Positions 1,023 through 28,527 of a stretch of DNA of 64,000 nt are shown here, one piece after another. The translations under genes were made by a program, and so were the position numbers. Below the pieces are notes generated by a model, which was not told the origin of the DNA, made no database searches, and saw only the letters and a program-made list of their open reading frames with translations. The number at the start of each line of letters is the position of its first letter. The stretch's first letter is position 1. This DNA comes from a virus. The stretch spans positions 146,209-210,208 of IMG/VR virus record IMGVR_UViG_3300035698_022190, one strand, 5' to 3'.

Positions 1023-1364
1023 TTACTGACCTATTTTACTTATTAGATCAAGTGCTTCTTCATTAGCAGCTAGTCTATGTGCGGCATCAACTTTTCTCAT
1101 ATCTTGTCCACATCCACATGGACACTCAAAGAATGTAGCCCATACTTCAGGGAAACACCTTTGACAAAAACTATAGCCTGTGTAGATCCTACGTACTTCG
1201 TCGTAACCTCGCTCGGTAACCTCATGATCTTGATCATGAAGTCTCCGGCCACAACAGGTCGTGCCTAAGTGATCTTCATCTCTACTTAGCATTGTAGCGG
1301 GCGTAGATTTATGTACTTTTCTTAATCCGAAAGGTATCCAGAGTCTGTCAAGAGGTTGCTTCAT
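1023..1364 (-). CDS. putative zinc-binding protein, 113 aa
   Basis: Unknown function. The C-terminal half has cysteine pairs (CQRC near residue 68, CPCGC near residue 83) and a TTCC motif near residue 37, which suggests a metal-binding ribbon. Its ATG overlaps the TGA stop of the upstream gene as ATGA, typical of translational coupling. It is the last gene of a four-gene minus-strand operon. Confidence 0.75.
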   Translation of the reverse strand: MKQPLDRLWIPFGLRKVHKSTPATMLSRDEDHLGTTCCGRRLHDQDHEVTERGYDEVRRIYTGYSFCQRCFPEVWATFFECPCGCGQDMRKVDAAHRLAANEEALDLISKIGQ

Positions 1365-1618
1365 AATGGCAATCTATTCTTTTGATATTCATCATAGCTC
1401 TCTTTCCATCCTAAGGCTTCTTTAGTAGTTTTAGCCTCCAGGTAAGTATTAAGGAATGATTCAATATCTTGCATCAATCCTGATTCGCCTTTAATGTCAT
1501 CTTCGAAACCGCTCTCCATAACTATATGAAGGACACTCTGGTTATTTGTGGAGAGCATTAAGTTATATATGTCTATGTGATCGATATTAACAAATGTGCC
1601 GGCTAAGTTAACTATCAT
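1361..1618 (-). CDS. hypothetical protein, 85 aa, TGA stop
   Basis: Acidic small protein of unknown function. It starts within the end of the upstream gene (11-base overlap). It ends at TGA inside an ATGA junction with the next gene, one of the pieces of evidence that TGA is a stop in the minus-strand operons. Confidence 0.75.
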   Translation of the reverse strand: MIVNLAGTFVNIDHIDIYNLMLSTNNQSVLHIVMESGFEDDIKGESGLMQDIESFLNTYLEAKTTKEALGWKESYDEYQKNRLPL

Positions 1619-1973
1619 CTCTTAACTCCTTCAGCAGCATATCTGTAATGTTAATAACATCTCGTCTCTCTGCGTCTACATATATAATTTGATGTTCCAT
1701 CTCAATAATGCTCGGACAAGTGAATTGTAGTATACCAAATCCTTTGTCTACCATTTCTTCAATATCTTTGACCGAGAACCAGGATAATAGGCCAGCTTTA
1801 TCAGCTACTGCGGTTTTCCAGTTCTTGCCATCAGTTTGGTGGATTGGATCATAAGGCATTGGCAAATTAAGCAATCTGTCATCTGACAACTGCTCAAGTA
1901 CCAGTTTACCATCAATTTTTGTAGTCCACATTCCATTTGATTCATCTAAATGTTCTATTCTACACAACCTCAT
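1608..1973 (-). CDS. hypothetical protein, 121 aa
   Basis: No family recognised. A soluble mixed-composition protein whose ATG lies inside the end of the gene before it, so the four genes 1960-2328 to 1023-1364 form one overlapping operon. Confidence 0.75.
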   Translation of the reverse strand: MRLCRIEHLDESNGMWTTKIDGKLVLEQLSDDRLLNLPMPYDPIHQTDGKNWKTAVADKAGLLSWFSVKDIEEMVDKGFGILQFTCPSIIEMEHQIIYVDAERRDVINITDMLLKELRDDS

Positions 1974-2328
1974 CTCGTAATTCCTTATATTTACCGGCTA
2001 TTACTCCTAAGCGTTGCTTTTCAAGAGTAAAGCCATGTTCAGCAGGATTTTCTGTCATATATGTAGCTGCTAACTGCTCAGTAGCAAATACCTGAAAATC
2101 TGTATCTATTCCGTCCCAGCCCATATCAATATAGACTAACCATACTTCTTGGTGATAGGCTAATTGATGACTAGCACCAATTAATGCTACGTTTAGGCTG
2201 GATAAAGCTTTATCTTTGGCGTCTTTTAGTCTTTTATCACTCATACATTTTAAGCAAAGATCTTCAGACCACCACACTGCATTAGATATTGTACTGCTGC
2301 ATTCTCTGCAGATCTTTTCTTCTGCCAT
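1960..2328 (-). CDS. zinc-ribbon protein, 122 aa
   Basis: The N-terminus carries two cysteine pairs (CREC near residue 7 and CLKC near residue 25), spaced as in a treble-clef or zinc-ribbon module. The rest is unassigned. I chose the ATG at 2328 because AAAGGAG lies directly upstream; the longer open frame runs back through a tRNA-like element and is unlikely to be coding. Confidence 0.75.
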   Translation of the reverse strand: MAEEKICRECSSTISNAVWWSEDLCLKCMSDKRLKDAKDKALSSLNVALIGASHQLAYHQEVWLVYIDMGWDGIDTDFQVFATEQLAATYMTENPAEHGFTLEKQRLGVIAGKYKELRDEVV

Positions 2329-2349
2329 TTGCGTCTCCTTTAAAATTGC

Positions 2350-2414
2350 TAAGTATGCCGGAATCGAACCGGCGTCACTCGTTTGTGAGTATATTACCCC
2401 TCTACCAATACTTA
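2350..2414 (-). tRNA. short tRNA-like element (65 nt)
   Basis: Seven perfect acceptor pairs (2408-2414 with 2350-2356) sit next to a perfect five-pair T-arm whose loop is TTCGATT. A D-like arm with three pairs follows the 5' strand. Only 15 nt remain for the anticodon arm and variable region, and that loop has no U33, so it does not fold as a normal tRNA. It may be a degenerate tRNA or a processing signal. Confidence 0.45.
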
Positions 2415-2420
2415 GGTTCA

Positions 2421-2437
2421 TCTGGTCGCGAACCAGA
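2421..2437 (-). other. isolated T-arm-like hairpin
   Basis: A perfect five-pair stem (TCTGG/CCAGA) encloses the seven-base loop TTCGCGA, matching a tRNA T-arm. It directly abuts the neighbouring 65-nt element. A partner acceptor strand with one mismatch exists near 2537-2543, which would give an oversized 130-nt RNA. A canonical anticodon arm was not found. Confidence 0.35.
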
Positions 2438-2601
2438 GTCTTCTTTGACGTCAGTCAAAATTTTACGAGCATGCAAGTATGTGTTGGATCAGGGCACATT
2501 TAGCCGACATCCTAGGTCTCGACGTATTCTATCCGATGCACCTTGGATACATTGTATCCACGGCACTTGCGCCCGTAATAAGGCTATATTCCAAAATTTG
2601 T

Positions 2602-2766
2602 GACCAGTGGAGGATTTGAACCCCCGATTATAGAGACTAGTGAGTTTCGCTCTATTAGCCTGCTGCTTACTACGCAGCGCTACACTTGAATACCCGGCTC
2701 ACTACTATCGAATATTACCGTGCGAATGTTTTAAAGAGTCTCGCCCTCTAAAACATAAAACTGGTC
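2602..2766 (-). tRNA. oversized tRNA-like element (165 nt)
   Basis: Seven perfect acceptor pairs (2760-2766 with 2602-2608) and an adjacent T-arm with loop TTCAAAT bracket 165 nt. Inside is a perfect five-pair stem with a seven-base loop GTAGTAA (2662-2678), which would read as anticodon AGU (Thr). Long hairpins stand where the D-arm and variable arm should be. It could be an insertion-bearing tRNA, a pseudo-tRNA or a tRNA-like processing signal. Confidence 0.35.
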
Positions 2767-2777
2767 ATTGCAATGTA

Positions 2778-2999
2778 TTATTTCTTCGGAGGAAGTCCAA
2801 GACTATCTTGACGCTCAAGATAATGTTCAAGGGCCTCCGTTACTACCCAGGAGAATCTTTTTGTGGTAAGACGTTTCCATCCGAATAGTCTCTTTAAAGA
2901 ATTCTTTAGAGCAGGCTCAATAGTACATTCCCACTCAACGAAGTCTCCATCGATCTCTACTTCTTTGATAATTTTAAAACTTCCTAACTTTTTCTCCAT
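2778..2999 (-). CDS. hypothetical protein, 73 aa
   Basis: Basic small protein with no family I recognise. AAAGGA stands nine bases before the ATG. It sits alone between two tRNA-like/structured stretches. Confidence 0.7.
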   Translation of the reverse strand: MEKKLGSFKIIKEVEIDGDFVEWECTIEPALKNSLKRLFGWKRLTTKRFSWVVTEALEHYLERQDSLGLPPKK

Positions 3000-3437
3000 A
3001 TGAATATCCTTTAATTTAAAGTATTAGGAATAAGGCTTAACTTTTCACCGGCGACTTTCAGGATTCGAGTATGAAATGTCCCGCCCGACTTAGAGGGGCC
3101 TCCTTGCAATGATCAACCTGCACGAGCTATCTGGGTTAAGCCATAAGTTCCTACGAAATTAATTGAGACTGTCCCCGCCTGTCGGTCTTGGGTACAGTTG
3201 GACCGGCCTAGTTAGTGGCTAACTCGTAATACAGTATCGGCAATACCCCATCAGGGGTATCTGCTCTCTTCGGGTTCTCTATATAGGCTCAGTGTACAGC
3301 TATCTTCCGGACTCTGTACTCGATTACTCTATATATTTCCATCCCCGTCCTGTTAACTGAACAAAGGGGATCTGCACTAGGTTAGTATCTTACGGCCAGA
3401 TTCTGTTAGGCTACAATGCCTACAGTCTCAAATTTGA

Positions 3438-5267: not shown

Positions 5268-5651
5268 TTATTTGTTTCCCAATACTAAATCTGGATGTGT
5301 TAAAAGGCTACTTAGACTTACGCTTGGTCGTGGGTCTATCTTTCCCCACGTCGTTAGTCCTGGTAGTTGTTTTAGCGTTGCTGCTATTATTACTCCTTCT
5401 TTTATTGGAATCGCTTGCCACGGAATTCCCTTTCGTCCTTGCGCTTTTCGACACTCGTTTATTTGGTGTCTTATTAATCCTATCCTCTTCCGAGCGTTTC
5501 CGCACTCTGGGCAATACTTTGCGTATGGTCCCTTCTTTTGACGAGGGCACCCTCTTGCTTCGCACAATGGGCTTCCTTTTTTCGCCTGTCTTTGTCGGCG
5601 TTGCTCTCGAAGGTATGCTTTTGCGCCCTTCTTTGATCCGAATAGTGCCAT
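5268..5651 (-). CDS. zinc-ribbon protein overprinted on lipoprotein gene
   Basis: This frame begins at an ATG at 5651 and runs in a different frame through the 3' half of the lipoprotein gene. It encodes a basic N-terminus, then C-x4-C and C-x2-C near residues 35-58, resembling the neighbouring 133-aa ribbon protein. Its third codon positions are A-rich like genuine genes here, whereas the overlapping lipoprotein frame has G/C-rich third positions. That favours this frame as the real gene in the overlap. No clear Shine-Dalgarno sequence precedes the start. Confidence 0.5.
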   Translation of the reverse strand: MALFGSKKGAKAYLREQRRQRQAKKGSPLCEARGCPRQKKGPYAKYCPECGNARKRIGLIRHQINECRKAQGRKGIPWQAIPIKEGVIIAATLKQLPGLTTWGKIDPRPSVSLSSLLTHPDLVLGNK

Positions 5652-6054
5652 TATTGTTTTCTGGTTTATTTGTTGTCGATCGTTTGTAAGGACTACGCTT
5701 AGTCCAGCTGCGATCATATCTATTTTTATAAGGTTTCTTCTTTTTATACTTAAAGTAATGGTTATCATACCTATTGTAGGTGTTCCAATTGTAGTAACTT
5801 GAGGAATACCAAGGATAATTCCAGTCCCAACCATAATAGTTCACATAATAATAGCCATAGTGAGGGTTAAACTGGTAATAATTGTATGAATATCCCGGAT
5901 TAAAAGATAACGTAAAAGAATAGGACCCCAAATCGTAATCGACATAGTCATAGTGAGGTTTCTCTACGTATAGTCTATGTCGTGTGTTCATATTAGTGTA
6001 GCAACCCGTTAAAAACAGTATTGCCATCATAAGTGTAATTAGTCTGTATTTCAT
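5308..6054 (-). CDS. tyrosine-rich lipoprotein, 248 aa
   Basis: The signal peptide ends in the lipobox LTGC (residues 15-18), so the mature protein should be lipid-anchored. Residues 30-110 are very rich in Tyr/Asn/Trp. The last 110 residues are a low-complexity Lys/Arg/Ser/Thr tail that overlaps another plausible gene in a second frame, so the true C-terminus may lie near 5650. A surface or superinfection-exclusion role is conceivable but unsupported. Confidence 0.65.
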   Translation of the reverse strand: MKYRLITLMMAILFLTGCYTNMNTRHRLYVEKPHYDYVDYDLGSYSFTLSFNPGYSYNYYQFNPHYGYYYVNYYGWDWNYPWYSSSYYNWNTYNRYDNHYFKYKKKKPYKNRYDRSWTKRSPYKRSTTNKPENNNGTIRIKEGRKSIPSRATPTKTGEKRKPIVRSKRVPSSKEGTIRKVLPRVRKRSEEDRINKTPNKRVSKSARTKGNSVASDSNKRRSNNSSNAKTTTRTNDVGKDRPTTKRKSK

Positions 6055-6093
6055 ATATATGTGTCCTGATTTATATCATAATATACTATATAT

Positions 6094-6114
6094 AGTACAA
6101 AAACTGTGCCAAAT
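6094..6114 (-). promoter_or_regulatory. shared 21-bp promoter-like element
   Basis: Read on the minus strand, 21 bases starting TGGCACAGTTTTTG and ending in ACTATA are identical to 30228-30248, upstream of the Hsp20 gene. Here the element precedes the lipoprotein start by about 40 bp. It resembles a -24/-12 site (TGGCAC-N5-TTG) but lacks the usual GC at -12. Confidence 0.5.
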
Positions 6115-6233
6115 ACTTAAATATAATAATATCAGTATATTCAGATTAAAATTCCAAGATTAGTGTCTAAATAGTATACATTAAATTGTATACTAAGTAA
6201 ACAGTGACGAATTTTAACGAGATTAGTGCGTAC

Positions 6234-6243
6234 TTCTTATACC
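6234..6243 (-). promoter_or_regulatory. GGTATAAGAA promoter motif
   Basis: Exact copy, 179 bp upstream of the lipoprotein ATG. Confidence 0.45.
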
Positions 6244-6333
6244 GGAAAGTGTAAAAAAATTGGCGTGTAATAACAAGTATTACTAATGGCTTATCTTGTA
6301 TCAGCCCTCTTACTCTAGTCGTTACCTCATAAT

Positions 6334-6353
6334 AATAAGAACCCCTTCTTATT
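6334..6353. terminator. 8-bp hairpin terminator
   Basis: AATAAGAA/TTCTTATT arms around a four-base loop overlap the stop of the small TTG-start gene and precede the next promoter motif. Confidence 0.5.
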
Positions 6354-6456
6354 AATTAAAGTAATATAGCTCCTGTATTAAGGGAATTATATGACTGGAA
6401 AGATTGTTCTCCTTCGTGGAAAACAAGTCTAGTTGTTCTTCGTGTTTATCATCCAA
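6352..6456 (-). CDS. possible small acidic protein, 34 aa, TTG start
   Basis: A frame starting at TTG (6456) with AGGTGG five to six bases upstream encodes an acidic 34-residue peptide and ends at TAA in a hairpin. A promoter motif lies 44 bp upstream. The promoter-RBS-ORF-hairpin order supports it; no homology is apparent. Confidence 0.4.
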   Translation of the reverse strand: MDDKHEEQLDLFSTKENNLSSHIIPLIQELYYFN

Positions 6457-6500
6457 GACGCCACCTGATAATTTTGAAGGTCGTTAACCTTCTTGCACAA

Positions 6501-6510
6501 TTCTTATACC
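6501..6510 (-). promoter_or_regulatory. GGTATAAGAA promoter motif
   Basis: Exact copy immediately past the RNase HII stop, 44 bp before the small TTG-start frame. Confidence 0.5.
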
Positions 6511-6517
6511 AGAATAC

Positions 6518-7156
6518 CTACTTTTTACGCTTTTTTGAGGGCTTAGAGGTGTTGAAGACTTTTTTCCACCAATTATTGGCGTATCCCCGTCTTCTGTGGA
6601 AGGGCGTGGGTCCCACTGTGTTGAGGAGCTTCTTGTCATGAGCCCTGATTAACCCTTTACTAAAGTTGGGCGCAAAATCAGGGTAAAGTGCGGCAAAGCC
6701 ATGAAACAGGGCATCAGCGGTTACTTTAGCATGAATTGATGCTGCCCATACCCAAGCATCTCCACCGGTTATGCTTTTTACGCTGAAATTGGGGTGAAAT
6801 TCGCTAGAAAAGGGTTTAGCTAAGGATTCATCAGCATGAAGCTCTATTTTGCCCGTACGAAGCCGCCTAGGCAGGGATTGAATAATTCTACGTACTGCTT
6901 CAGCTGCAGCCTGATTACGAGCGCGATATACCCCGAATCGCTCAATATCTGAGGGCATTGCTAAAGAAATTACATAATGACCTATTTGAGTAAGGCTATT
7001 AAATAATTCTACTCTAGCTGCTGAGTTGATAGCCTTTGAGTCTCTGATGTTTGATGGAAGTGTGGTGCGAGTTGGACGAAGGATATATGCCGCACATACA
7101 CAGGGGCCTGCCATAGATGGGCTATAGTTTGCTTCATCGAGTCCTATAATTACCAT
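6518..7156 (-). CDS. rnhB: ribonuclease HII
   Basis: Removes RNA from RNA-DNA hybrids, including primers and misincorporated ribonucleotides. The signature GLDEANYSPSMAGP (residues 5-18) corresponds to the RNase HII GxDEAGRGxxAGP motif, with changes after DEA. RDSKAI near residue 38 and the AKVTAD segment near residue 142 supply other conserved acidic and active-site positions. At 212 aa the length is normal. It is a single-gene unit in the minus-strand cluster. Confidence 0.85.
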   Translation of the reverse strand: MVIIGLDEANYSPSMAGPCVCAAYILRPTRTTLPSNIRDSKAINSAARVELFNSLTQIGHYVISLAMPSDIERFGVYRARNQAAAEAVRRIIQSLPRRLRTGKIELHADESLAKPFSSEFHPNFSVKSITGGDAWVWAASIHAKVTADALFHGFAALYPDFAPNFSKGLIRAHDKKLLNTVGPTPFHRRRGYANNWWKKVFNTSKPSKKRKK

Positions 7157-8514: not shown

Positions 8515-8543
8515 TTGCTATTTGCCAAGGAAATGCTTATATT
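8515..8543 (+). promoter_or_regulatory. TTG-N20-TATATT promoter
   Basis: TTG at 8515 and TATATTTAAG at 8538 are separated by 20 bp. The start codon of the spike gene follows 8 bp after TATATT. Confidence 0.65.
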
Positions 8544-8551
8544 TAAGTGTT

Positions 8552-10438
8552 ATGAAAAAACGTAATGTATATTCTCCTTATTTAAAGGATAGTTTGGGCG
8601 CCAACATATCTCGAGTATTTAGAGCTGTTGTAGTTGCCATACCAAAAGAAGAGGGCACAAATCGTCGCACTATCAAGGTACGTGATCTGTCTTCGACTAT
8701 TGGACAGCTGTCTGAAACATTTACAGCATACCCCCCAAACCCCATACCGCACTCTGATACAGGGAGTGGTTTTTACTCTGTACCTGATGTAGGAACAGAA
8801 TGTGTAGTCACAGACACCCATGAAGACGGGATAGTCCAAATTTTGACATATACACCACATACGAAGACAAGTGCTTCAACCCCCCAAGGCGTTCGCCATG
8901 CTGAGAACACAGAGCCAGGGGATTTCTATTTAAAGTCAGGGGGACATATTAAAGGGGTATTGCAGCTTTCACGAGGGGGTCTTGCGAGTTTATTCGCTGG
9001 GCATTTTGCACGCTTATCTGTGAATGGCACGGATAAACTGGTTACAATAGGAAATAAGCGGTTTAAACACTTTAGTGCTGTAGGCAGGCATCTTAATACA
9101 TACCAAGAGTCAGATGATTATACCGGAGAAGATGAGTTTACTACTCACGAGGCTAGTTTTGCACGGACATTTGAACATCCGGGAAGTAGCGATCTTGATT
9201 ATGAAACTGAGATTCAACCTAAAATTATTACTACCAAGTATGTAGACAAAGCATTAGTGCGTGCCGGCGGTATACCAAACCGTAATCACGCCACAAAGTT
9301 TTACCCACAACATACTTACCAGATTGAAACTCGTCAATCAACTGGCGAGAACCCTCAAAAGAAAGATACTATAACCATCTTACGTTTAGGACACCAGGCA
9401 GGCCGTAATTTAGGAGTTTATAAGTACGGTACAGATTTATTCAACCCACCGGGGACCATGGTCGAGCTAGAAAGTAAGCGGGTGACAGCGTCTTCCTCTA
9501 GTTCGATGCTCTGGAGGTATGGAAAGTTTACAAAAGATATACAAACACGAAACCCTGATTTAGCAGCAGGAGCACCAGGCACTGACACAGATTATGTGAG
9601 TGGTGAAGTATTTCGTCATCAAGTATATGAAGGTATAACTCCGGGAGGGGGGTCCGTCTTAAACCCAATGGCAGACTCTAAGCATTATGATTTTGAATTC
9701 CCCAAAAATAAGGCTACAGAGCAACTGACTACCAGTTTCGGCACATTAACTAGTAATTTTGCGTCCGCAGATTTAAAAGGCAGTATTTGGCGTAAGCATA
9801 TTCATAGATATGATACCCCACTCACTGCAGCACCAAAAGGTTTGTCGCGAACGGAAATCTTAGGAAGAGCCTCTGAAGAATACTTGTATTCTGATGTAAT
9901 TTCACATTCACTGGGGACTACTACAGTAGATTATGAACATTATATAAAAAAAGATTTATATCAACGTATATGGACACGAGTAGCCGGGGGAACATCTAAG
10001 CTAAAGGAACAGGTGTCCGGCACAGATGATATTACTTACACCCTTACTCGATCGGACGATGACAATAGCGAAAAAATTACCTTAGAGAAGGATAAAGCTT
10101 TAATAAAAGTATTAACTAAGAGCACTACATATTTAGTTAAGCTGAATGAGGAGGCATTGACCATTTCTATTGAGGATGACACAGATAGTGGGTCAATAGA
10201 GCTAACATCGGGCGGAATCACCATAGACGCTGGAACTAGCCCTGCAAATATTATTAAGTTAGGCGGATCAGGTGGAGAGCAGCAATTAGTAACGAAGTCT
10301 TGGGTAACCAATATATTTATGAAACACATGCATCCAACAGCAGCAACCGGACCACCCTCTACACCTATCCCTTTGCCAGCAATAACTATTCCAGACTCAT
10401 CTAACTCACCCTATACTAAACAAACCAAGGCTGAATAA
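8552..10438 (+). CDS. baseplate spike protein (gp5/VgrG-like)
   Basis: The N-terminal 100 residues resemble the OB-fold of phage gp5/baseplate V proteins, with the GSGFYSVPDVGTECVV segment near residue 70. The long middle is a virion-type region. The C-terminus contains a KHMHPTAATGPPSTP stretch typical of the end of spike proteins that load a tip. I chose ATG 8552 because it follows the promoter by 8 bp; the longer frame starts at a TTG inside the promoter. First gene of a tail operon with TAATG junctions. All four Trp codons are TGG. Confidence 0.75.
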   Translation: MKKRNVYSPYLKDSLGANISRVFRAVVVAIPKEEGTNRRTIKVRDLSSTIGQLSETFTAYPPNPIPHSDTGSGFYSVPDVGTECVVTDTHEDGIVQILTYTPHTKTSASTPQGVRHAENTEPGDFYLKSGGHIKGVLQLSRGGLASLFAGHFARLSVNGTDKLVTIGNKRFKHFSAVGRHLNTYQESDDYTGEDEFTTHEASFARTFEHPGSSDLDYETEIQPKIITTKYVDKALVRAGGIPNRNHATKFYPQHTYQIETRQSTGENPQKKDTITILRLGHQAGRNLGVYKYGTDLFNPPGTMVELESKRVTASSSSSMLWRYGKFTKDIQTRNPDLAAGAPGTDTDYVSGEVFRHQVYEGITPGGGSVLNPMADSKHYDFEFPKNKATEQLTTSFGTLTSNFASADLKGSIWRKHIHRYDTPLTAAPKGLSRTEILGRASEEYLYSDVISHSLGTTTVDYEHYIKKDLYQRIWTRVAGGTSKLKEQVSGTDDITYTLTRSDDDNSEKITLEKDKALIKVLTKSTTYLVKLNEEALTISIEDDTDSGSIELTSGGITIDAGTSPANIIKLGGSGGEQQLVTKSWVTNIFMKHMHPTAATGPPSTPIPLPAITIPDSSNSPYTKQTKAE

Positions 10439-10701
10439 TGCAGACAGTAACAGAAGATAAAATATTTGAGACCTTTAAGTCTTTATATGAGTCCCAAAAC
10501 CATGAGGAAGAGGTAACGATATCGCACACCTTCAATGATGAGACGGGACAAATAACAGATGAGACAGAAGTTCAGGCATTTGATGTAAATGCAGATCTTG
10601 AAGCATTAGTACGCTCTATTATAAAAGCAATGCTAAGTGAAATTAGAAAGAATGGTATAGCTATGGGTGATTCAACTGCTACGAAAATTGAGGTCGGTTA
10701 A
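10438..10701 (+). CDS. hypothetical tail-operon protein, 87 aa
   Basis: Acidic, probably helical small protein with no recognised family. It overlaps its neighbours at TAATG junctions, placing it between the spike and the putative tip protein. Confidence 0.75.
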   Translation: MQTVTEDKIFETFKSLYESQNHEEEVTISHTFNDETGQITDETEVQAFDVNADLEALVRSIIKAMLSEIRKNGIAMGDSTATKIEVG

Positions 10702-11114
10702 TGAAGAGCTATATAGTCCATGGAGATAAGATTATATTTGAGCCTATGGCTGGGGCAGCAATAGTTACAGCCCCTCCTGCAGCATTTATTGTTACCAGCA
10801 ACATTGGGGTAGCTATGGGTAGTAAAAAGAATTTAGCAATAGAAGATGATTTAAAAAATGTAAAGGTAAGTGCTACATATATTAGTTCTGCCTTTGTTGG
10901 GGGTACGGGATTAGTTACTTTAATTAATTGGCCCAAAGTATCTAGCAAGACGACTAAGAAAAAGAAGGGGGTACTGACACATGGAGGTAAAGGAAAGTAT
11001 AAACTTAGTGTTGTAACGCCGGCTATCAATCCTTCGGGCGTGGTTGATCCAACACCTATATATAATGGGTCATTTACATCCGTTCCATCACAATTTGTAT
11101 TTACTGAGAAATAA
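10701..11114 (+). CDS. possible PAAR-like spike-tip protein, 137 aa
   Basis: Rich in Gly/Ala/Val with short beta-like repeats and a conserved-looking GTGLVTLINWP segment. Size, position next to the spike and composition resemble PAAR-like or DUF4280-type tip proteins, but the family match is weak and no metal ligands stand out. Confidence 0.45.
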   Translation: MKSYIVHGDKIIFEPMAGAAIVTAPPAAFIVTSNIGVAMGSKKNLAIEDDLKNVKVSATYISSAFVGGTGLVTLINWPKVSSKTTKKKKGVLTHGGKGKYKLSVVTPAINPSGVVDPTPIYNGSFTSVPSQFVFTEK

Positions 11115-11115
11115 C

Positions 11116-11144
11116 TTGACTAAAAGGTCAAACAAGGATATATT
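11116..11144 (+). promoter_or_regulatory. TTG-N20-TATATT promoter
   Basis: TTGACT and TATATTTAGG with 20-bp spacing lie upstream of the large 726-aa gene. The leader is about 60 bases and contains a 13-codon frame. Confidence 0.7.
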
Positions 11145-11152
11145 TAGGTATA

Positions 11153-11194
11153 ATGAAACAATTAACATCATATAACACGAGCACACGTTCATAA
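11153..11194 (+). CDS. possible leader peptide, 13 aa
   Basis: ATG 8 bp after TATATT opens a 13-codon frame (MKQLTSYNTSTRS) ending in TAA 15 bases before the next ATG. It could be a regulatory upstream frame or chance. Confidence 0.3.
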   Translation: MKQLTSYNTSTRS

Positions 11195-11209
11195 GGCTGG
11201 GAGACGCAA

Positions 11210-13390
11210 ATGAATAACTTATTTCTAGACAATGTTGAGTTTGAAAAGATCGGGGAGCTGATATACTTAGACAAAGATTCAACTAAGTGGATTAAAACAA
11301 TAGTAGGTGCATTCTTGGAACAATACCCAATGATGCAAGACTTGCCTATTACCCTTTCTTGGAAAAAGAAAGATACTAATAAGGGTTACGGCGTTGGTAC
11401 ACTAAACATAGCAGGAGCACAGGTTCCCGTTATTGCAAACCAATGGCAGGTATCACCTTTTGATATCATTCTTGTTTCTGGACAAACATATCCATTAAAC
11501 ACAGACATCTTACAAACTTTAATGACTGAGGCTTCACCTTTTAAAGGTGTTGCTGGGTCTGGAAAGAAACAATCTATGGCTATCTTTGGAGAACAGCTAC
11601 AGATTTCACCACAAGATGTAGGACAAACACCTATTAAATATGCGTCAGCCAATTCTTTTATTGATGCGATAGAAAATGTAGATAAGCAGGCCGTTATAAA
11701 TATTCTTAGAACTGTACAAGATAATCCTACAATTAAGCAAGGCTTTGTTGATAATGACACATATGACATAATTGAGAAAATAGCTACAAAGAAGGTAACT
11801 GACTTACAATCAACGGTGGACACATTTACTCGTGGATTAGAGATGGATCGCCAATTTGTAGCCTCAGATGCTTATGGCAATAAAATTTTAAAGCAAGCTA
11901 ATTCAGCAGTGGATGTGACATGGGATACATCCATTACTCCAGCCGAGGGTGAAACTTATGAATTGAAAACAGCTACACTACCAGAGATTGAAGATGTTAA
12001 GGTTAAAAAACCTGTCGCTATCTTTGGAACGGATACAGACACAGTCTTGCATATATATGAAGACAGATCATGGGAAATAAAAGAAGCAGAATTAAATGAA
12101 GAGCTGGAGAGTACACTTGAAAGTGATCAGCCACACACCGGTGACTTCGGAGTTTGGGCACTACATAATAAGGTAACTGCTCCTTTTGAGGTTTCTCGTA
12201 TTTACAAAACAGCTGAAGTTGATGCTGTAAATAAATATCATATTACAGATTCAGATGACTCTCTATATTTAACAAAAGAGGGTGAATGGTTCAGAACACA
12301 GGAAGAGCGCGAACAGCCACTAACATCTAATTTTGAAGCTGAAGGTGTCGACCCCAAAGTTCATGACTTTGGTGTATGGATCACTAACGATAATGTTACT
12401 GAGCCTTTTGAAATAGTTTCAATGGAAAAGATTGCTGAAATTGGTCAGTGGGAAATCACCGGACATTCAGGTCTAAAGATGACACGTTACTATCCCATTC
12501 GTACCAAGTCGGAAGAATTAGTAGAGAAAGAAAAAAATGCATACTACGTACCAGGAAATGCTAAATTTGTCAAACTAGGTGCTCAGGTAACTGAGGCTGA
12601 TACTGCAGATGTATATAAACAAGCAGCGGAACTAGCAGCTGAAACTAGCGCTGTGTGTATTGAAGGAACAGCTGATTTTCGCAAAGTTTCTTATTATCTT
12701 GAAAAAGATTGTGAGAATAAATCCTTTGTGAATCATCAAATGTATCTGGATGCAAAAGTCGTACCTGAAAAGGCAAGGTTCATTAAATTAGGCGAAAAAG
12801 CCACATATAAATTGCCCAATAGAATAAAAGAAAATGTACACAATATCCATAAAGATTCTGCAGGGCTATACAGATTAAGTGGTAGAGAGTTTGATAAATA
12901 TGCAGATAAACACGAAACTCGTGATCTGAACCATGATAGTGCTTTTTGGGCAATGGTTCACTGTGGAGTAGCCAAAGAAGATCTTCGTAAAATAGCATCA
13001 ATGCACAATGGAGAGACTATTGCGTTGATATCTAACCCAAAAGCTCCATTATCTGTAAAAGATGTGGTTGGCGCAGTAGAACGCAATTATGAAAAGCATG
13101 CAGAAACTATTGGTAAGCTAAAGATCAATTTAGTGAAGGAAGCTTCTGTGTTAAATAATAAAGGTAGTGTAGATGCTGTATTATCTTTAGGATTACTAAA
13201 GAAAAGTAATGCATTAGAATATTCTAACCTTGTACCTCAATATGAGAGTGTAATGTCAGATATGGCAAAATTACTATTAGCCACACGTCTGGGAATGCAG
13301 CAAGTTCCAGAGGAAGCAGTAAAGACGGCTATGTTATCTCTAGCTGATGTAGTGGCGGTATTAAAACAAATTGGAGCCGTAAATAAATAA
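11210..13390 (+). CDS. large structural protein, 726 aa
   Basis: No named family recognised. Residues about 270-470 contain imperfectly repeated segments of the type GDFGVWALHNKVTAPFEVSRI and HDFGVWITNDNVTEPFEIVSM, a tandem duplication. The C-terminal 130 residues look helical. Position in the tail operon and size suggest a virion component. GGGAG upstream of the ATG can serve as ribosome site. All ten Trp codons are TGG. Confidence 0.7.
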   Translation: MNNLFLDNVEFEKIGELIYLDKDSTKWIKTIVGAFLEQYPMMQDLPITLSWKKKDTNKGYGVGTLNIAGAQVPVIANQWQVSPFDIILVSGQTYPLNTDILQTLMTEASPFKGVAGSGKKQSMAIFGEQLQISPQDVGQTPIKYASANSFIDAIENVDKQAVINILRTVQDNPTIKQGFVDNDTYDIIEKIATKKVTDLQSTVDTFTRGLEMDRQFVASDAYGNKILKQANSAVDVTWDTSITPAEGETYELKTATLPEIEDVKVKKPVAIFGTDTDTVLHIYEDRSWEIKEAELNEELESTLESDQPHTGDFGVWALHNKVTAPFEVSRIYKTAEVDAVNKYHITDSDDSLYLTKEGEWFRTQEEREQPLTSNFEAEGVDPKVHDFGVWITNDNVTEPFEIVSMEKIAEIGQWEITGHSGLKMTRYYPIRTKSEELVEKEKNAYYVPGNAKFVKLGAQVTEADTADVYKQAAELAAETSAVCIEGTADFRKVSYYLEKDCENKSFVNHQMYLDAKVVPEKARFIKLGEKATYKLPNRIKENVHNIHKDSAGLYRLSGREFDKYADKHETRDLNHDSAFWAMVHCGVAKEDLRKIASMHNGETIALISNPKAPLSVKDVVGAVERNYEKHAETIGKLKINLVKEASVLNNKGSVDAVLSLGLLKKSNALEYSNLVPQYESVMSDMAKLLLATRLGMQQVPEEAVKTAMLSLADVVAVLKQIGAVNK

Positions 13391-13400
13391 CGGAAATATT

Positions 13401-16842: not shown

Positions 16843-16845
16843 TAG

Positions 16846-16874: not shown

Positions 16875-16879
16875 TAAAC

Positions 16880-17488: not shown

Positions 17489-17491
17489 AAT

Positions 17492-17521
17492 AAAAAAAGG
17501 GAACTAATACTTCCCTTTTTT
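17492..17521. terminator. intrinsic terminator
   Basis: A7GGGAA/TTCCCT6 hairpin between the two sulfotransferase genes. Confidence 0.75.
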
Positions 17522-17526
17522 CTTCT

Positions 17527-18147
17527 ATGCCTTTTATAATGCCAAAACAAAAAGCAATCTTTCACCACATACCAAAGACAGGTGGAACTAGTATTCGTGC
17601 ATACCTAGAAAATTATACCCATGGCAAAGATGTATATCGTCACAGACCCCCGAGCAAATGTATAGAAGATGGGCGTATCCATCCAAAATGGTTTTTCGAA
17701 TCTTTTAAATTTGCCTTTGTCAGAAACCCATTTGCGCGGGCCGTATCAGTCTGGGAATTTCGAGGACGAACGGATATTAAACGTCGGCACAACTGCGCAA
17801 CTTTTGAGGAATTTATAAAATACTATTACCCACATATGCCACTACAAGATTGGGATCCAGTAGAAGCAACTATGTGCCCACAACATCATTTTGTGATTAA
17901 TAAAAAAGATTCTCGCCTAAGTATGGATTTTGTGGGATATTATGAAAATTTACAGAAACACTTTAATAAGGTCTGTACCCGCTTGAAACTTCCTGTAGGA
18001 ACTTTAGAACACCGCAATAAAGCCTGGTCTTTAAAAAAGTATCCCCATTACAGTACCTATTACACTACAGAACTAAAACAAATGGTTACGGAAATGTACG
18101 AAGAAGATCTAGATACTTTTAAGTACACCTTTGAAAATTTAAGTTAA
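17527..18147 (+). CDS. sulfotransferase family protein (copy 2), 206 aa
   Basis: Paralogue of the gene before it: HIPKTGGTS near residue 14 binds the 5'-phosphosulfate, RNPFARAVSVWE near residue 65 binds the 3'-phosphate, and the C-terminal Y-Y-T-x-E-L/T-R segments are shared. No promoter of the usual type separates it from the terminator upstream, so expression may rely on readthrough. Confidence 0.8.
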   Translation: MPFIMPKQKAIFHHIPKTGGTSIRAYLENYTHGKDVYRHRPPSKCIEDGRIHPKWFFESFKFAFVRNPFARAVSVWEFRGRTDIKRRHNCATFEEFIKYYYPHMPLQDWDPVEATMCPQHHFVINKKDSRLSMDFVGYYENLQKHFNKVCTRLKLPVGTLEHRNKAWSLKKYPHYSTYYTTELKQMVTEMYEEDLDTFKYTFENLS

Positions 18148-18168
18148 AAGAAGGGTTAACCCTTCTTT
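18147..18168. terminator. bidirectional terminator
   Basis: Palindromic AAAGAAGGGTT/AACCCTTCTTT between convergent genes. Confidence 0.75.
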
Positions 18169-18177
18169 ATATTTTAC

Positions 18178-18507
18178 CTACCATTGTTCGTGAGCGTGCT
18201 CTTCTGCGTAACGCATTAGTTCTTCATCAGGCCATTTGTCCATTTGTGAAAAGCGTTGCTCTTTTAATCTTTTAAGCTCTTGCTCCTCTAAAATAACTTC
18301 AAGCGCATCTCGGGTTGACATACTATGGCTAAGTATGTGTAGGTCTTCATAAACTTTGGGATAGCTATAATCAATATTAGCATTCAATATGTGGATAGCA
18401 TGTGTATCGCTAAACAATTGAGGCCCATAATTTATGAGTAGCAAGGTAAGGAAAAGGCTGCCTATAAAAGCAACCCCAAAATGTTTTCCCTTTATCGATT
18501 TGTCCAT
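18178..18507 (-). CDS. membrane-anchored protein, 109 aa
   Basis: A single N-terminal TM segment (residues 9-30) is followed by a polar, helical, Glu-rich domain, probably extracytoplasmic. Function unknown. AAAGGAG precedes the ATG. Confidence 0.7.
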   Translation of the reverse strand: MDKSIKGKHFGVAFIGSLFLTLLLINYGPQLFSDTHAIHILNANIDYSYPKVYEDLHILSHSMSTRDALEVILEEQELKRLKEQRFSQMDKWPDEELMRYAEEHAHEQW

Positions 18508-18532
18508 AAGTTTTAATCTCCTTTAATTATAT

Positions 18533-18542
18533 TTCTTATACC
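18533..18542 (-). promoter_or_regulatory. GGTATAAGAA promoter motif
   Basis: Exact copy 25 bp before the 109-aa gene. Confidence 0.55.
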
Positions 18543-18559
18543 TTTTTCGGTATTAAAAC

Positions 18560-18588
18560 TTGCTTTTAATACCTTTAAACGCTATATT
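18560..18588 (+). promoter_or_regulatory. TTG-N20-TATATT promoter
   Basis: TTGCTTTT at 18560, TATATT at 18583, five bases before ATG 18594. Confidence 0.7.
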
Positions 18589-18593
18589 TAAGT

Positions 18594-19256
18594 ATGATAA
18601 ATAAAAAATTTCGAGAAAATTACTTTCAGAATATAAACACTCAGAACAAGGGCTATCATCTTGGCTGGATGTATGCAGATGGAAATGTAGCAGCAACGAG
18701 TAATCAAATAGGTTTTACTATAAACCCTAAAGATATAGAACAAGTTGAAAAATTTAAGGCTGATATGGCTATTTCAAATAATCCAACTTTTCATCGTAAA
18801 GATGACAAATATGATATGGTAAGTTTTCATTTTAGTAGTAAAATTATGCGTGGAGATTTAATTAAATTGGGGTGTACTCCAAAGAAAAGTCTTACGCTTC
18901 AAGCACCCATAGATATGGATCCCCGACTTAGGCGGCACAATATTAGAGGTTATTTTGACGGAGATGGGTCAATAGGATATATGGGCAAGAATAAACAGCC
19001 CCAGGTAACTTTTGTCGGTACGGAGAAAATGCTAAAATGGATTCAAAATGAATTACCGGTACCCTCACACATTTATGCTTTTACCCATGCTCATGTAAAT
19101 ACACGCAGACTTGTTGTTACTAAACAGAAAGATGTTATAGATTTATATGACTATTTATATAAAGGAGAAACACGTTCTCTATCTCGAAAGAAAAGTAAGT
19201 TCGCAGAAATTAAGACCGACTTACAAGCTCGACACCGTAACAAGAAAAATTCTTAA
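18594..19256 (+). CDS. free-standing LAGLIDADG homing endonuclease, 220 aa
   Basis: Two LAGLIDADG-type helices are visible: YHLGWMYADGN near residue 19 and IRGYFDGDGSIG near residue 117, each with its acidic catalytic residue. A single-chain two-motif layout is typical. It is inserted between minus-strand operons with its own promoter and terminator, as expected of a mobile endonuclease gene. It has no TGA codons, unlike the two intein endonucleases further right. Confidence 0.8.
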   Translation: MINKKFRENYFQNINTQNKGYHLGWMYADGNVAATSNQIGFTINPKDIEQVEKFKADMAISNNPTFHRKDDKYDMVSFHFSSKIMRGDLIKLGCTPKKSLTLQAPIDMDPRLRRHNIRGYFDGDGSIGYMGKNKQPQVTFVGTEKMLKWIQNELPVPSHIYAFTHAHVNTRRLVVTKQKDVIDLYDYLYKGETRSLSRKKSKFAEIKTDLQARHRNKKNS

Positions 19257-19296: not shown

Positions 19297-19401
19297 TCAA
19301 TGAAGACATGCATTGTCCACCCAAGTTATAACTGCTGCAAAGATTAAAATTAATACACCAATTATGTAGGGCCTACGTTTTGGAATCGACCAAAGTTTCA
19401 A
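19297..19401 (-). CDS. small TM peptide, 34 aa, TTG start, TGA stop
   Basis: A TTG start overlaps the TGA of the upstream gene (TTGA). The peptide has a basic N-terminus and one hydrophobic helix (YIIGVLILIFAAVITW). It ends at TGA. Reading TGA as Trp would carry the frame through the terminator and into the opposite-strand gene, so TGA must be a stop here. Confidence 0.55.
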   Translation of the reverse strand: MKLWSIPKRRPYIIGVLILIFAAVITWVDNACLH

Positions 19402-19901
19402 CTATCTACCCAAGTAATCTCAGTAGGATCCGGTTTAACAACAATAATTATAGTGCTTTTCTTTATCAAGTTGCCCCATAAGAAACTTTTTTGTTGTTCC
19501 TGTTTTTTACTCACTTTATAATTGTAACTGTCTACCCTTTCATGTAAGCTGCGAAGGGTAGTGGTCATAAACTGATCAGTCGAATCCACTGCGGGTGTAA
19601 ACAACACCCAATGTGCTGAATCTGGTTCGAATAGCATCGAATCGTCGTAACTGCTTTCTATACTCATGAACTCCATAGCTAGGTTATTATCGCTAACGTT
19701 TGATAGTCCCGAAACACCTAGTACAGTAAAACTACTTACGATTAACGCTATTAGTAACACAAACTCAAAACCAAAGAACCCCTTGCTCCACGATCTAGGT
19801 TTGTCAAACATTGCAGCACCTGCCGAGTTATCGGTTACAAATCTATATATCCACAATAGTGTTGCAAAGCTCATAATGACAAATAGTGTAGTTAATATCA
19901 T
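19398..19901 (-). CDS. membrane protein, two TM helices, 167 aa, TGA stop
   Basis: TM segments at residues 2-20 and about 41-65 precede an extracytoplasmic-looking domain and a third, weaker hydrophobic segment near the end. Function unknown. It ends at TGA overlapping the TTG start of the next peptide. Confidence 0.7.
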   Translation of the reverse strand: MILTTLFVIMSFATLLWIYRFVTDNSAGAAMFDKPRSWSKGFFGFEFVLLIALIVSSFTVLGVSGLSNVSDNNLAMEFMSIESSYDDSMLFEPDSAHWVLFTPAVDSTDQFMTTTLRSLHERVDSYNYKVSKKQEQQKSFLWGNLIKKSTIIIVVKPDPTEITWVDS

Positions 19902-22250: not shown

Positions 22251-22649
22251 TTAAAATTCCTTCCCGTCGCTTTCGATCCAGCGTTGATTGCTCACAGCAG
22301 CATGCCGAACTATAGCTTCCTGAGCTTCTTCACGGGTATTATAACGCACTTCATCAACAGCGTTATTAGTATATTTAACTAATACCTTAAAAGTACCGTT
22401 GCCGAATTCATGTATGCTATACCCGTTGACGCTACAGTATGATGGTCGCTTTTTACTACCTTCGTTAACCGGGCCTTTTAAAATCCTGTGTACAGGATCA
22501 TTTACAGGATCATTTACAGTATCCTTTACAATATTATTGGGTTTATTAAATCGTCCGCTGTTGCCCTCGAAACCAGTAGGTGGTCCATAAAACAACATTG
22601 TTAGTCCCATTATTGCAAGCATTACAATAATCACTGTGCTTGTTTTCAT
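22251..22649 (-). CDS. membrane-anchored protein, 132 aa
   Basis: N-terminal TM anchor (residues 5-22), a low-complexity linker with DPVNDPVH-type repeats, and a compact C-terminal domain. Its ATG overlaps the TGA of the gene before (ATGA). Function unknown. Confidence 0.7.
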   Translation of the reverse strand: MKTSTVIIVMLAIMGLTMLFYGPPTGFEGNSGRFNKPNNIVKDTVNDPVNDPVHRILKGPVNEGSKKRPSYCSVNGYSIHEFGNGTFKVLVKYTNNAVDEVRYNTREEAQEAIVRHAAVSNQRWIESDGKEF

Positions 22650-22849
22650 ATAGTTTTTCCTTTCTGTAGTATGCCATGTTTTTTAGCTAGGTTTAAAGCT
22701 TCGCCTGGACGAAACCGGGCCAACCGACTAACTCTGCCTAACAAATTTCGATTCAAATCATATTCATAGACCCTTCCATCGATTGAAAACTTAACGGCAT
22801 CTAGACCTAAATTGTGTTTTGCGGTGCCTATTAATACTATCTTAGTCAT
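22646..22849 (-). CDS. hypothetical protein, 67 aa, TGA stop
   Basis: Basic small soluble protein of unknown function. It ends at TGA in an ATGA overlap with the next gene. Confidence 0.65.
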   Translation of the reverse strand: MTKIVLIGTAKHNLGLDAVKFSIDGRVYEYDLNRNLLGRVSRLARFRPGEALNLAKKHGILQKGKTI

Positions 22850-24588: not shown

Positions 24589-25095
24589 CTAATGTAAGGG
24601 GAATGGCGATACAACAATTTCTGGTTCTAAATAAACTAACCGTGGGTTACTCTCGGCATCAAGCATCATCAACCAAGTTGCACTAGAGCTCGTTGGCATG
24701 AAGAGCCCATTAGGATCGGCCTGTGGTAGTATTTCAAAACCACCCTGGTAAGATCTTTTGGTTCTCATAGGGTTTGTGAACTGCGCGGAGAAAGGAACGC
24801 CATATCCTAGGCATTTACCAATATACATAAGTTTTCCCTGGTAATCGCTTTTGATATAAGCATAGCAAACTATATCTTCTTGATCTTGTAATTCATAGAT
24901 CATTTTCATTAGTTTACGTTGCTGGAAATTTACAATATTTGGCATCCCAATCTGACGTTGAGATTCGGCAAGTAATAATTCTGTTGCCTCTTCTTGGATT
25001 GAATCTGTATCTGAACTCATTTCGCATGTTTCTGCAGTGAATACAAAGTAACACAGTGTTACAAGCAGTACTGCATATAATGGACGTACCCTCAT
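24589..25095 (-). CDS. exported or membrane-anchored protein, 168 aa
   Basis: A hydrophobic N-terminal segment (residues 6-22) is a signal or anchor. The rest resembles a widespread but uncharacterised phage/bacterial type with VCYAYIKS then CLGYGVPFSAQFTNP near residues 75-108. The two cysteines may be redox or metal ligands. Confidence 0.65.
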   Translation of the reverse strand: MRVRPLYAVLLVTLCYFVFTAETCEMSSDTDSIQEEATELLLAESQRQIGMPNIVNFQQRKLMKMIYELQDQEDIVCYAYIKSDYQGKLMYIGKCLGYGVPFSAQFTNPMRTKRSYQGGFEILPQADPNGLFMPTSSSATWLMMLDAESNPRLVYLEPEIVVSPFPLH

Positions 25096-25427
25096 TAATA
25101 GCCTCTTGTTTTTACTAAGAAATCTCTTAGTGTTTCATTGGAAATGTCTTCAGCGTTTACATCTGCAATTTGCATTTTGATTGTCGCTTCAATGGCTTTC
25201 TTGCCATCATAATCAGTATCTTGCCATTCGCCATATAGCTTTCCTAGCAATTGTTGCTGACCATGAACATATGATTTTGTATTTTCGAAAACTTCTCTAC
25301 GGATGTTTTCTTTCTTTGGAGCATACCATTTAGTAAAACTTAGGTCCATGGCTCCTGAAATGAATAGTATAAGAAATAGGCCTACAATACAAAGTAGGAC
25401 AATTACCGTGATTTTAAACGGGCTCAT
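25095..25427 (-). CDS. membrane-anchored protein, 110 aa
   Basis: N-terminal TM helix (residues 5-27) followed by a charged helical region that could form a coiled coil. It lies between two overlapping genes. Confidence 0.7.
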   Translation of the reverse strand: MSPFKITVIVLLCIVGLFLILFISGAMDLSFTKWYAPKKENIRREVFENTKSYVHGQQQLLGKLYGEWQDTDYDGKKAIEATIKMQIADVNAEDISNETLRDFLVKTRGY

Positions 25428-25660
25428 CTATTTTCCTTTTTAATTAAGTTTCTTTTTGCACCTTCACAGAAAGGATGGTCTTGATTGCCGTGACACATTA
25501 CCCGCCAGAAACTGTGCGGATAGTCTTCATCATCCTTCATGTCTATTAATTTACAATAACTTCCTGCACCATCTCGTAGATAGTGTGGACAGCTCTCTAA
25601 ATTTAAAACTTTAGGCCGACGACCACCGGCCCTACTGTTTAAATTCCTGTGGTTTCCCAT
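25424..25660 (-). CDS. Cys/His-rich protein, 78 aa, TGA stop
   Basis: Cysteines and histidines at residues about 23-25, 35, 54-56 and 62-65 suggest one zinc site. It ends at TGA in an ATGA overlap with the next gene. Confidence 0.65.
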   Translation of the reverse strand: MGNHRNLNSRAGGRRPKVLNLESCPHYLRDGAGSYCKLIDMKDDEDYPHSFWRVMCHGNQDHPFCEGAKRNLIKKENR

Positions 25661-27679: not shown

Positions 27680-27689
27680 TTCTTATACC
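27680..27689 (-). promoter_or_regulatory. GGTATAAGAA promoter motif
   Basis: Exact copy just past the 48-aa gene with no obvious gene before the terminator at 27572; possibly a small RNA start. Confidence 0.4.
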
Positions 27690-27708
27690 TAATTGCGGTT
27701 AAAAGTGT

Positions 27709-27855
27709 CTAATGAAAATAAAAGAAATATACAATAATAAAACTCAGGAGGGCGCATACCAAACATGGTAGAAGATGGGTGTATATAAATTTACGTCGGT
27801 CCCCAGTTCGGCGGCCGAAGTGTAAGTCAATGAACTTACATAAATAGTTCTTCAT
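27709..27855 (-). CDS. small membrane protein, 48 aa
   Basis: Basic N-terminal half (many Arg/Lys) and a C-terminal hydrophobic helix. The ATG is five bases after a TATATT box that itself lies 20 bp from TTGCTTTT, exactly the arrangement of the leaderless plus-strand genes. That promoter match is the main evidence for the gene. Confidence 0.55.
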   Translation of the reverse strand: MKNYLCKFIDLHFGRRTGDRRKFIYTHLLPCLVCALLSFIIVYFFYFH

Positions 27856-27860
27856 AATTT

Positions 27861-27889
27861 AATATACACTTTAAATAAAATAAAAGCAA
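27861..27889 (-). promoter_or_regulatory. TTG-N20-TATATT promoter (minus strand)
   Basis: TTGCTTTT and TATATT with 20-bp spacing, the only copy of this class found on the minus strand. Confidence 0.6.
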
Positions 27890-27908
27890 GTTTAAACGTT
27901 CTTAAACT

Positions 27909-27933
27909 AAAAGAAGAGTTTAACCTCTTCCTT
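27909..27933. terminator. intrinsic terminator
   Basis: GAAGAG/CTCTTC hairpin after the 93-aa gene. Confidence 0.6.
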
Positions 27934-27946
27934 TAAGATACATCTT

Positions 27947-28228
27947 CTAAAGTACTGGTGCATTACAATCTGGGCAGTGTTTCTTTGTCAAGCCCAGTCC
28001 AGATAGCCCATTCAAAAACTTATGTGTTTTTTCATGTTTTACCGTAATGGGCTGCCATGCGGTCGTACATAGCGTGCAAAAGAAAGCGTTTGCTCCCCTG
28101 TTAGTTTTTCTTGTACTCGATTTATTTTGTAAAATAGCCTTTGATGTGTTTTTCATACTTATAAGAAATTGACAAATTGTATTATTTGTGTCTACATTTT
28201 GTGGAAAGTGTTTTGCTTGTAAAGCCAT
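27947..28228 (-). CDS. zinc-binding protein, 93 aa
   Basis: Two cysteine pairs (CTLC near residue 52 and CPDC near residue 86) with intervening His suggest a zinc ribbon. AGGAG precedes the ATG. It is second in a two-gene operon. Confidence 0.7.
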   Translation of the reverse strand: MALQAKHFPQNVDTNNTICQFLISMKNTSKAILQNKSSTRKTNRGANAFFCTLCTTAWQPITVKHEKTHKFLNGLSGLGLTKKHCPDCNAPVL

Positions 28229-28243
28229 GTTATCTCCTGTTTG

Positions 28244-28492
28244 TTATTTATGGGCAATTTGCTGTCCCGGACTTAGTTTTAATTGGGAAAGCTTTTCTTG
28301 TAACTTAATAAATTCTACATCTGTGAGATGGATATCTATCTCTCGATCAGCGGTAAGAACTGATAAAACAATGGCCGATCCTGTTACTTTGCAAACTTCT
28401 CGGCTGGTATTAATCTTTATTTTGTCAGCACAAATCAGTTCTTCTTTTCTTGTAATGACAGCACTTGGGGATTTTTTCTTGGACATAGGCAT
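28244..28492 (-). CDS. hypothetical protein, 82 aa
   Basis: Basic soluble protein, no family recognised. AAAGGAG immediately precedes the ATG. Confidence 0.65.
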   Translation of the reverse strand: MPMSKKKSPSAVITRKEELICADKIKINTSREVCKVTGSAIVLSVLTADREIDIHLTDVEFIKLQEKLSQLKLSPGQQIAHK

Positions 28493-28527
28493 GCTCCTTT
28501 TAGGTTAATTTAAATGACTAGTTATAA

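Follow-up and report, generated by a model that had tools for sequence, protein, structure and literature searches.

The phage genome in the virus record IMGVR_UViG_3300035698_022190 (G000 hereafter; 210208 bases) probably changes the way UGA is read in the course of infection, by means of a late tRNA that carries two anticodon arms. Early genes of this phage use TGA as a stop codon, while late genes contain it as a codon for tryptophan (Trp). The window analysed here is the final 64 kb of the record (positions 146209-210208), and the remainder of G000 was also read. Genes were called with our own codon-usage caller, which permitted TGA as stop or as sense. Because both record ends adjoin in the relative G007, where some 2 kb separate the homologues of G000 genes 209218 and 3615 (locus L018), the record is probably close to complete.

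Two uses of TGA within one genome

Across the genome, 115 in-frame TGA and 213 TGG codons were counted in late plus-strand genes, compared with 0 TGA and 468 TGG in all other genes (Fisher p=3.7e-51). TGA ends 1 of 75 late genes versus 25 of 183 other genes (p=0.0013). This arrangement recurs in the recoded relatives in which both blocks were sampled, and the proposal of an initial annotation that early genes follow the standard code and late genes an altered one is borne out. That annotation had spoken of minus-strand operons. The split within the genome is real, but it tracks operons rather than strands, as the plus-strand blocks at 8.5-19.3 and 28.8-30.6 kb of the window match the minus strand. 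The blocks and genes concerned are listed by window position.

1023-28492, minus strand: early block, TGA is a stop; 66 TGG, no in-frame TGA
1361-1618, minus strand: early gene of 85 amino acids with a TGA stop; ATGA overlap with the next gene (1023-1364)
19398-19901, minus strand: early gene of 167 amino acids with a TGA stop (TTGA)
22646-22849, minus strand: early gene of 67 amino acids with a TGA stop; ATGA overlap with gene 22251-22649
25424-25660, minus strand: possible early gene of 78 amino acids with a TGA stop; ATGA overlap with gene 25095-25427; weak coding score
8522-19256, plus strand: TGA-free block with 34 TGG and no TGA stops; encodes a methyltransferase and two sulfotransferases
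28795-30633, plus strand: TGA-free genes with 17 TGG, including a papain-like protease
30947-63390, plus strand: late block, TGA is Trp by alignment; 42 in-frame TGA, 120 TGG
36549-39200, plus strand: late gene of 883 amino acids with 8 in-frame TGA
47215-49884, plus strand: large terminase with an intein-like insertion and 8 in-frame TGA; TGG or TGA at matching sites in relatives
51471-54371, plus strand: prohead-protease-like gene with an intein-like insertion and 3 in-frame TGA

The absence of in-frame TGA from the minus-strand genes and from the genes at 8.5-19 kb, noted earlier, is confirmed by these counts (66 and 34 TGG, respectively). Of the five minus-strand TGA stops that had been proposed, four are supported: 1361, 22646 and 25424, each in an ATGA overlap, and 19398, in TTGA, with the gene at 25424 having the weak coding score given above. 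Read-through past the stops at 1361, 19398, 22646 and 25424 would add 12, 11, 7 and 6 codons, respectively, before a TAA. The fifth, at 19297, closes just a 34-codon open reading frame (ORF) with a TTG start and probably no gene. The distance to back-up stops behind early TGA codons did not differ significantly (median 8 vs 12 codons, p=0.25).

Early genes are often short and include some cargo genes, and it could be argued that they lack TGA merely through recent acquisition or shortness, with no temporal switch. This is hardly credible, given 468 Trp codons that are all TGG. Such codons include those of conserved core replication genes, which are alike across recoded relatives; TGA-Trp codons in conserved early genes, which would have spoken against the split, were not seen.

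The late TGA codons are shown by sequence comparison to stand for Trp because standard-code relatives carry TGG at those positions. In alignments of at least 30% identity, in-frame TGA codons of G000 faced TGG 56 times, TGA 18 times, and other residues or gaps 18 times, and three relatives (G002, G003 and G006) encode the same genes without any TGA. A reading of UGA as selenocysteine (Sec) is not supported, as the G000 codons align with TGG-coded Trp.

A tRNA with two anticodon arms

The only UCA tRNA that ARAGORN found in G000 lies outside the window at genome positions 65786-65883. It belongs to the late operon, where the endolysin gene is its immediate downstream neighbour about 17 nt away, and it begins a few bases past a small ORF. 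The remaining phage tRNAs, about 25, form an early minus-strand array at 98.1-107.6 kb, apart from this gene. The tRNA has tandem anticodon arms, the first with the loop CUUCAAA (UCA) and the second with the loop GUCCAAA (CCA), both of 7 nt and each on its own stem. Its acceptor end has the features of a Trp acceptor (A1-U72, G2-C71, G3-C70, G73 and an encoded CCA end), and the stem and G73 agree with the set that defines Trp identity in bacteria (PMC9976931). G015, a close relative, again has this tRNA directly upstream of the endolysin gene, with both loops identical to those of G000 and with different stems. Two-arm tRNAs at L185, L215 and L258 are likewise on the late strand and directly upstream of endolysin genes.

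A covariance model scored two-arm tRNAs at 77-104 bits. Applied to 943 kb of standard-code relatives it found none, the best match being 49 bits and the matches ordinary tRNAs. The G000 tRNA does not reach the Rfam cut-offs for tRNA or tRNA-Sec. Identity as tRNA-Sec was rejected on its RF01852 score (32.5 bits vs a cut-off of 47), its 7-bp acceptor stem and the alignment of TGA with Trp. Relaxed ARAGORN searches for an ordinary UCA tRNA elsewhere in G000 gave scattered low-quality matches only. A tRNA-like gene in the window (2349-2414, minus strand; 41.6 bits) has no clear anticodon and adjoins more tRNA-like remnants; it was discarded as a suppressor on account of its 6-nt anticodon loop, ACAAAC, without UCA.

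The two-arm tRNA is very likely the decoder of UGA. UGA might instead be read as a near-cognate codon by an ordinary phage tRNA-Trp(CCA) or by a host tRNA, the two-arm tRNA being incidental. G000 does encode a tRNA-Trp(CCA) (genome 102186-102257), and UGA can be read by CCA tRNAs with a 4-bp anticodon stem (PMC13092985). We consider this very improbable: the phage CCA tRNA has a full 5-bp anticodon stem, the standard-code relatives G003 and G004 carry Trp(CCA) genes as well, and recoding is tracked by the two-arm tRNA instead.

The architecture is not peculiar to G000. A two-loop pattern search of viral contigs returned 103 stretches, and after filtering on the acceptor, the T stem and both arms there were 52 distinct two-arm tRNAs, mostly from uncultivated phages, with 3 of the 52 from bacterial assemblies. 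In this set, the UCA arm follows directly after the D arm, the discriminator is G73 in all 52, and 44 members have 4 nt linking the CCA arm and the T stem. The stem filter favours paired arms in the 52-member set, a bias that is not shared by an independent set of long UCA tRNAs. To avoid circularity, this second search fixed UGCCA and the loops of the UCA and T arms and did not ask for a second arm. It gave 46 distinct matches, 39 of them long, and UCCAA was present in the second loop of 37 of the 39 (1.65% expected). At least four of the five second-arm stem pairs were formed in 33 of these 37. The covariation score was 0.712, compared with 0.180 in shuffled and at most 0.143 in slid controls, and all nine pairs tested across both arms show changes on both sides. 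Among 50,697 records of named phages, there was no full-length match. Of 18 bacterial-genome matches to the pattern, 15 were not accepted as two-arm Trp tRNAs; several Alphaproteobacterial matches resemble genuine SelC genes in which a UCCAAA loop occurs by chance.

Recoding accompanies these tRNAs. Their flanks hold 553 in-frame TGA and 922 TGG codons, with TGA ending 12 of 448 genes, while other loci from the same searches hold 132 TGA and 1631 TGG, with TGA ending 102 of 452 genes. Among the other loci, several that do contain TGA have a tRNA that is a close variant of the two-arm type. One example comes from an isolate: the Bacteroides neonati MS4 prophage (L321-L322, scaffold about 110-131 kb) has a two-arm tRNA upstream of a late operon with about eight in-frame TGA codons in its genes, and the surrounding genes of this standard-code bacterium end in TGA.

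We lean towards a division of labor in which the UCA (or CUA) arm decodes and the CCA arm provides identity for the host tryptophanyl-tRNA synthetase (TrpRS), so that UGA, and in at least one case UAG, would be assigned to Trp without a synthetase of the phage's own; such a class would also account for some of the suppressors missing from TGA-recoded phages. On balance, the CCA arm seems to serve charging. A tentative alternative, to which we give a smaller share of belief, is that the tRNA is the decoder and the second hairpin an inert long variable arm, with host TrpRS charging through the acceptor stem and G73. The two-arm tRNAs of L179, L190 and L264, whose D arms resemble those of long-arm tRNAs, would suit such an arm, as would the single-arm UCA Trp tRNAs of the recoded G030 and G044. 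An inert arm would not be expected to keep UCCAA as the long UCA tRNAs do, mostly in a 7-nt loop on a covarying stem, and UCCAA was found in the long arm of none of 84 Ser, Leu and Tyr long-arm tRNAs of the sequences examined.

A further alternative is that one arm is excised as an intron-like insert, leaving either Trp(CCA) or a suppressor Trp(UCA), in which case processing could itself be the switch. The phage has RtcB and RNA ligase genes, and recoded jumbo phages have been reported with tRNA introns (PMC13037316). We nevertheless regard excision as improbable, since halves taken across the arms pair at 2.9 and 2.8 of 5 positions vs 4.8 and 4.7 within arms, the insert is far below the length of a group I intron, and G000, G029 and G026 already have an ordinary Trp(CCA) gene. 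An intron in the anticodon loop was rejected likewise, as spliced halves from different arms would not pair.

The division of labor between the arms makes a prediction for UAG. G026 (L335-L342), a viral contig with one more tRNA beyond the set of 52, has the same architecture, with CUA replacing UCA in the first arm and the CCA arm retained, along with 67 TAG-containing ORFs; ARAGORN found no other CUA tRNA in it. Should the CCA arm determine the amino acid, TAG in this phage would be Trp and not the usual Gln, and TAG=Trp was predicted beforehand on this basis. Opening TAG raised the long-ORF length from 40.9 to 75.5 kb, and the TAG columns held W in 37 of 72 and Q in none. Because an amber (CUA) tRNATrp receives Gln in E. 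coli (PMC9976931), this result favours a role for the second arm; that a CUA tRNA with a CCA arm still accompanies TAG=Trp also speaks against an inert hairpin. The open-access literature searched held nothing relevant describing a UAG=Trp code.

The distribution of synthetase genes is suggestive only. TrpRS was found in 1 of 20 recoded records searched, G030 (trpS equivalog), which has a single-arm UCA tRNA and 397 in-frame TGA, and in none of the 17 two-arm records. None was found in the single-arm G044 and G045, both of which may be fragments. In G000, there was no match to release factor (PF00472) or TrpRS (PF00579) families, and no phage release factor 1 or 2 (RF1, RF2).

A probable switch in time

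Because the suppressor tRNA is located in the late operon, a switch in time is likely. Early genes would be transcribed from GGTATAAGAA-type promoters while host RF2 still terminates at UGA. The late operon would then yield the suppressor tRNA, and UGA in late messages would thereafter be read as Trp, the first arm (UCA) pairing with UGA on the ribosome and the second (CCA) preserving the anticodon needed by host TrpRS.

The replication block, outside the window at genome 7.8-36.4 kb, fits such a switch. It is a third class of genes in which TGA is neither stop nor sense: TGA ends 0 of 36 genes there vs 24 of 122 genes of the other early block on the minus strand (p=0.0025), and 4 of 97 replication-block orthologues in recoded phages vs 29 of 121 in standard-code relatives (p=3.8e-5). 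The simplest reading is that TGA stops mark genes expressed only early, TGA-Trp marks genes expressed only late, and avoidance marks genes expressed across the change.

Two promoter-like motifs appear, from their placement, to match these classes roughly. The genome has 24 intergenic sites with the GGTATAAG motif, without exception on the minus strand. The TTG-N17-TTATATTTAA motif lies upstream of several late units, including the tRNA unit (about 200 nt upstream of the two-arm tRNA), and also of the TGA-free plus blocks and some replication genes. Sites in the window are as follows.

28530-28537 (genome 174745), minus strand: GGTATAAG early promoter-like site, one of the 24 intergenic sites
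8537-8545 (genome 154745), plus strand: TTATATTTA promoter-like site ahead of the plus-strand block 8552-19256
30723-30731 (genome 176931), plus strand: TTATATTTA promoter-like site just ahead of the late block
57159-57167 (genome 203367), plus strand: TTG-N17-TTATATTTA promoter-like site preceding late gene 57203

The position of the tRNA varies among relatives. With the tRNA in the late operon of G000, TGA ends 25 of 183 early or other genes, while in G029, with the tRNA in a tRNA array, TGA ends 2 of 125 genes genome-wide. This is the direction expected if the location of the tRNA sets the timing of the UGA change, although two genomes are no proof.

Several observations weigh against a late two-arm tRNA as the agent of the switch. 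The TTATATTTA motif of late genes is shared by two plus-strand blocks, 8.5-19.3 and 28.8-30.6 kb, yet TGA accounts for 0 of their 51 Trp codons, and so motif and code use are not one-to-one. In G026 and G029, the two-arm tRNA sits in a tRNA array and not in a late operon. The second arm is not strictly required, since single-arm UCA Trp tRNAs occur in the recoded G030 and G044, the latter with no TrpRS in its 100-kb record. Recoded members do not form a single clade in a tail-sheath tree, although they may still have a single origin. Finally, no release-factor gene was found in G000 that would lift competition from RF2.

It had also been suggested that suppression may time late expression or lysis. 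That the TGA codons are a designed timer is rather unlikely. Late genes are the recoded ones and the suppressor tRNA adjoins the endolysin gene, but timing of lysis is not supported in G000 because its Amidase_2 endolysin (genome 65901-66503) holds four TGG and no TGA. The G015 endolysin has five TGA codons, one of them codon 2, and so a lysis gate may exist in that relative. TGA is present in 36 of the 75 late genes, leaving about half without it, and is spread evenly along gene length (Kolmogorov-Smirnov p=0.19). N-terminal gating was rejected, as the codons are not clustered at gene starts. Avoidance of TGA in well-adapted late genes was rejected too, the correlation being of opposite sign (rho 0.40). 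Late TGA codons look more like drift tolerated after the arrival of the suppressor than like a gate designed for each gene.

Further genes complete the picture. The G000 phage is contractile-tailed (tail sheath, 5511-7118; large terminase as listed), and its replication block encodes Pol A, a sigma-70 factor, ribonucleotide reductase, primase and helicase. A fused beta/beta' RNA polymerase (G000:83406-89465, plus strand) has three in-frame TGA codons, and because of these it is apparently synthesised only after the code switch; it is perhaps packaged in the virion. Used as a query against viral contigs, it gave no confirmed relative, yet two retrieved records carry such a polymerase. The intein-like insertions of the terminase and prohead-protease-like genes contain TGA codons themselves. 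A late protein of 2588 amino acids (G000:56632-64398) has 32 TGA codons, a GDSL-lipase domain and a C-terminal Hint-like domain. The papain-family cysteine protease is encoded at window 28795-29601 (plus strand), and a phage-encoded transfer-messenger RNA at G000:95539-95943 (minus strand; L005:15539-15943) scored 108 bits. At L015:6723-9030 (minus strand) lies an NAD-salvage-like early operon (isochorismatase, Nudix and NAPRTase) with three ATGA overlaps in succession.

Comparison with known recoding systems

If the proposed roles of the arms are true, a tRNA may use different anticodons for the ribosome and for the synthetase, which would be a novel route to genetic code change and useful in code engineering. 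Phage code switching would gain a concrete, testable decoder, with a hint as to why standard searches overlook many opal suppressors, and the Bacteroides neonati MS4 prophage offers an isolate in which the two-arm tRNA can be tested. The open-access literature searched held no relevant report of tRNAs with two anticodon arms, so an earlier description is possible. Late-gene recoding itself is already published, and the pattern within the genome is known from other recoded phages; the new part is the probable two-arm decoder.

Late-gene recoding with a suppressor tRNA, RF1 or TrpRS is described in PMC10746230, which cites Borges et al. 2022. G000 shares with those phages late in-frame stops (TGA concentrated in late genes), standard-code early genes with TGA stops, and a suppressor tRNA (UCA). 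Unlike them, G000 has a two-arm suppressor and a TGA-avoiding replication class, and neither a phage RF1 nor a TrpRS was found in it. A phage release factor or TrpRS is reported there in some late-recoded members only, so their absence leaves membership open to G000.

The single-arm tRNA-Trp(UCA) of Mollicutes and G030 has the same UCA anticodon, 7-bp acceptor stem, G73 and reading of UGA as Trp; the G000 tRNA differs in its second 5-bp/7-nt CCA arm, placed after the UCA arm and before the T arm, with both anticodon arms covarying. Like tRNA-Sec (SelC, RF01852), it combines a UCA anticodon with a long arm ahead of the T arm, and with the bacterial code ARAGORN reports it as SeC; unlike tRNA-Sec, it has a 7-bp acceptor stem, a score below the cut-off and TGA facing Trp. 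The tRNA-Trp(CCA) with a 4-bp stem of Blastocrithidia and some bacteria (PMC13092985) also reads UGA as Trp by means of an altered Trp tRNA. In that system a single CCA arm reads UGA as near-cognate, whereas G000 has a cognate UCA arm and the stem of its CCA tRNA is 5 bp. TGA is also recoded in table-4 phages without a detectable suppressor, and a Sup-TCA (opal suppressor) tRNA was detected in only 11 of 73 table-4 phages (PMC11210395). Because the G000 two-arm tRNA falls below the Rfam tRNA and tRNA-Sec cut-offs, some of the suppressors missing from those phages may be two-arm tRNA genes.

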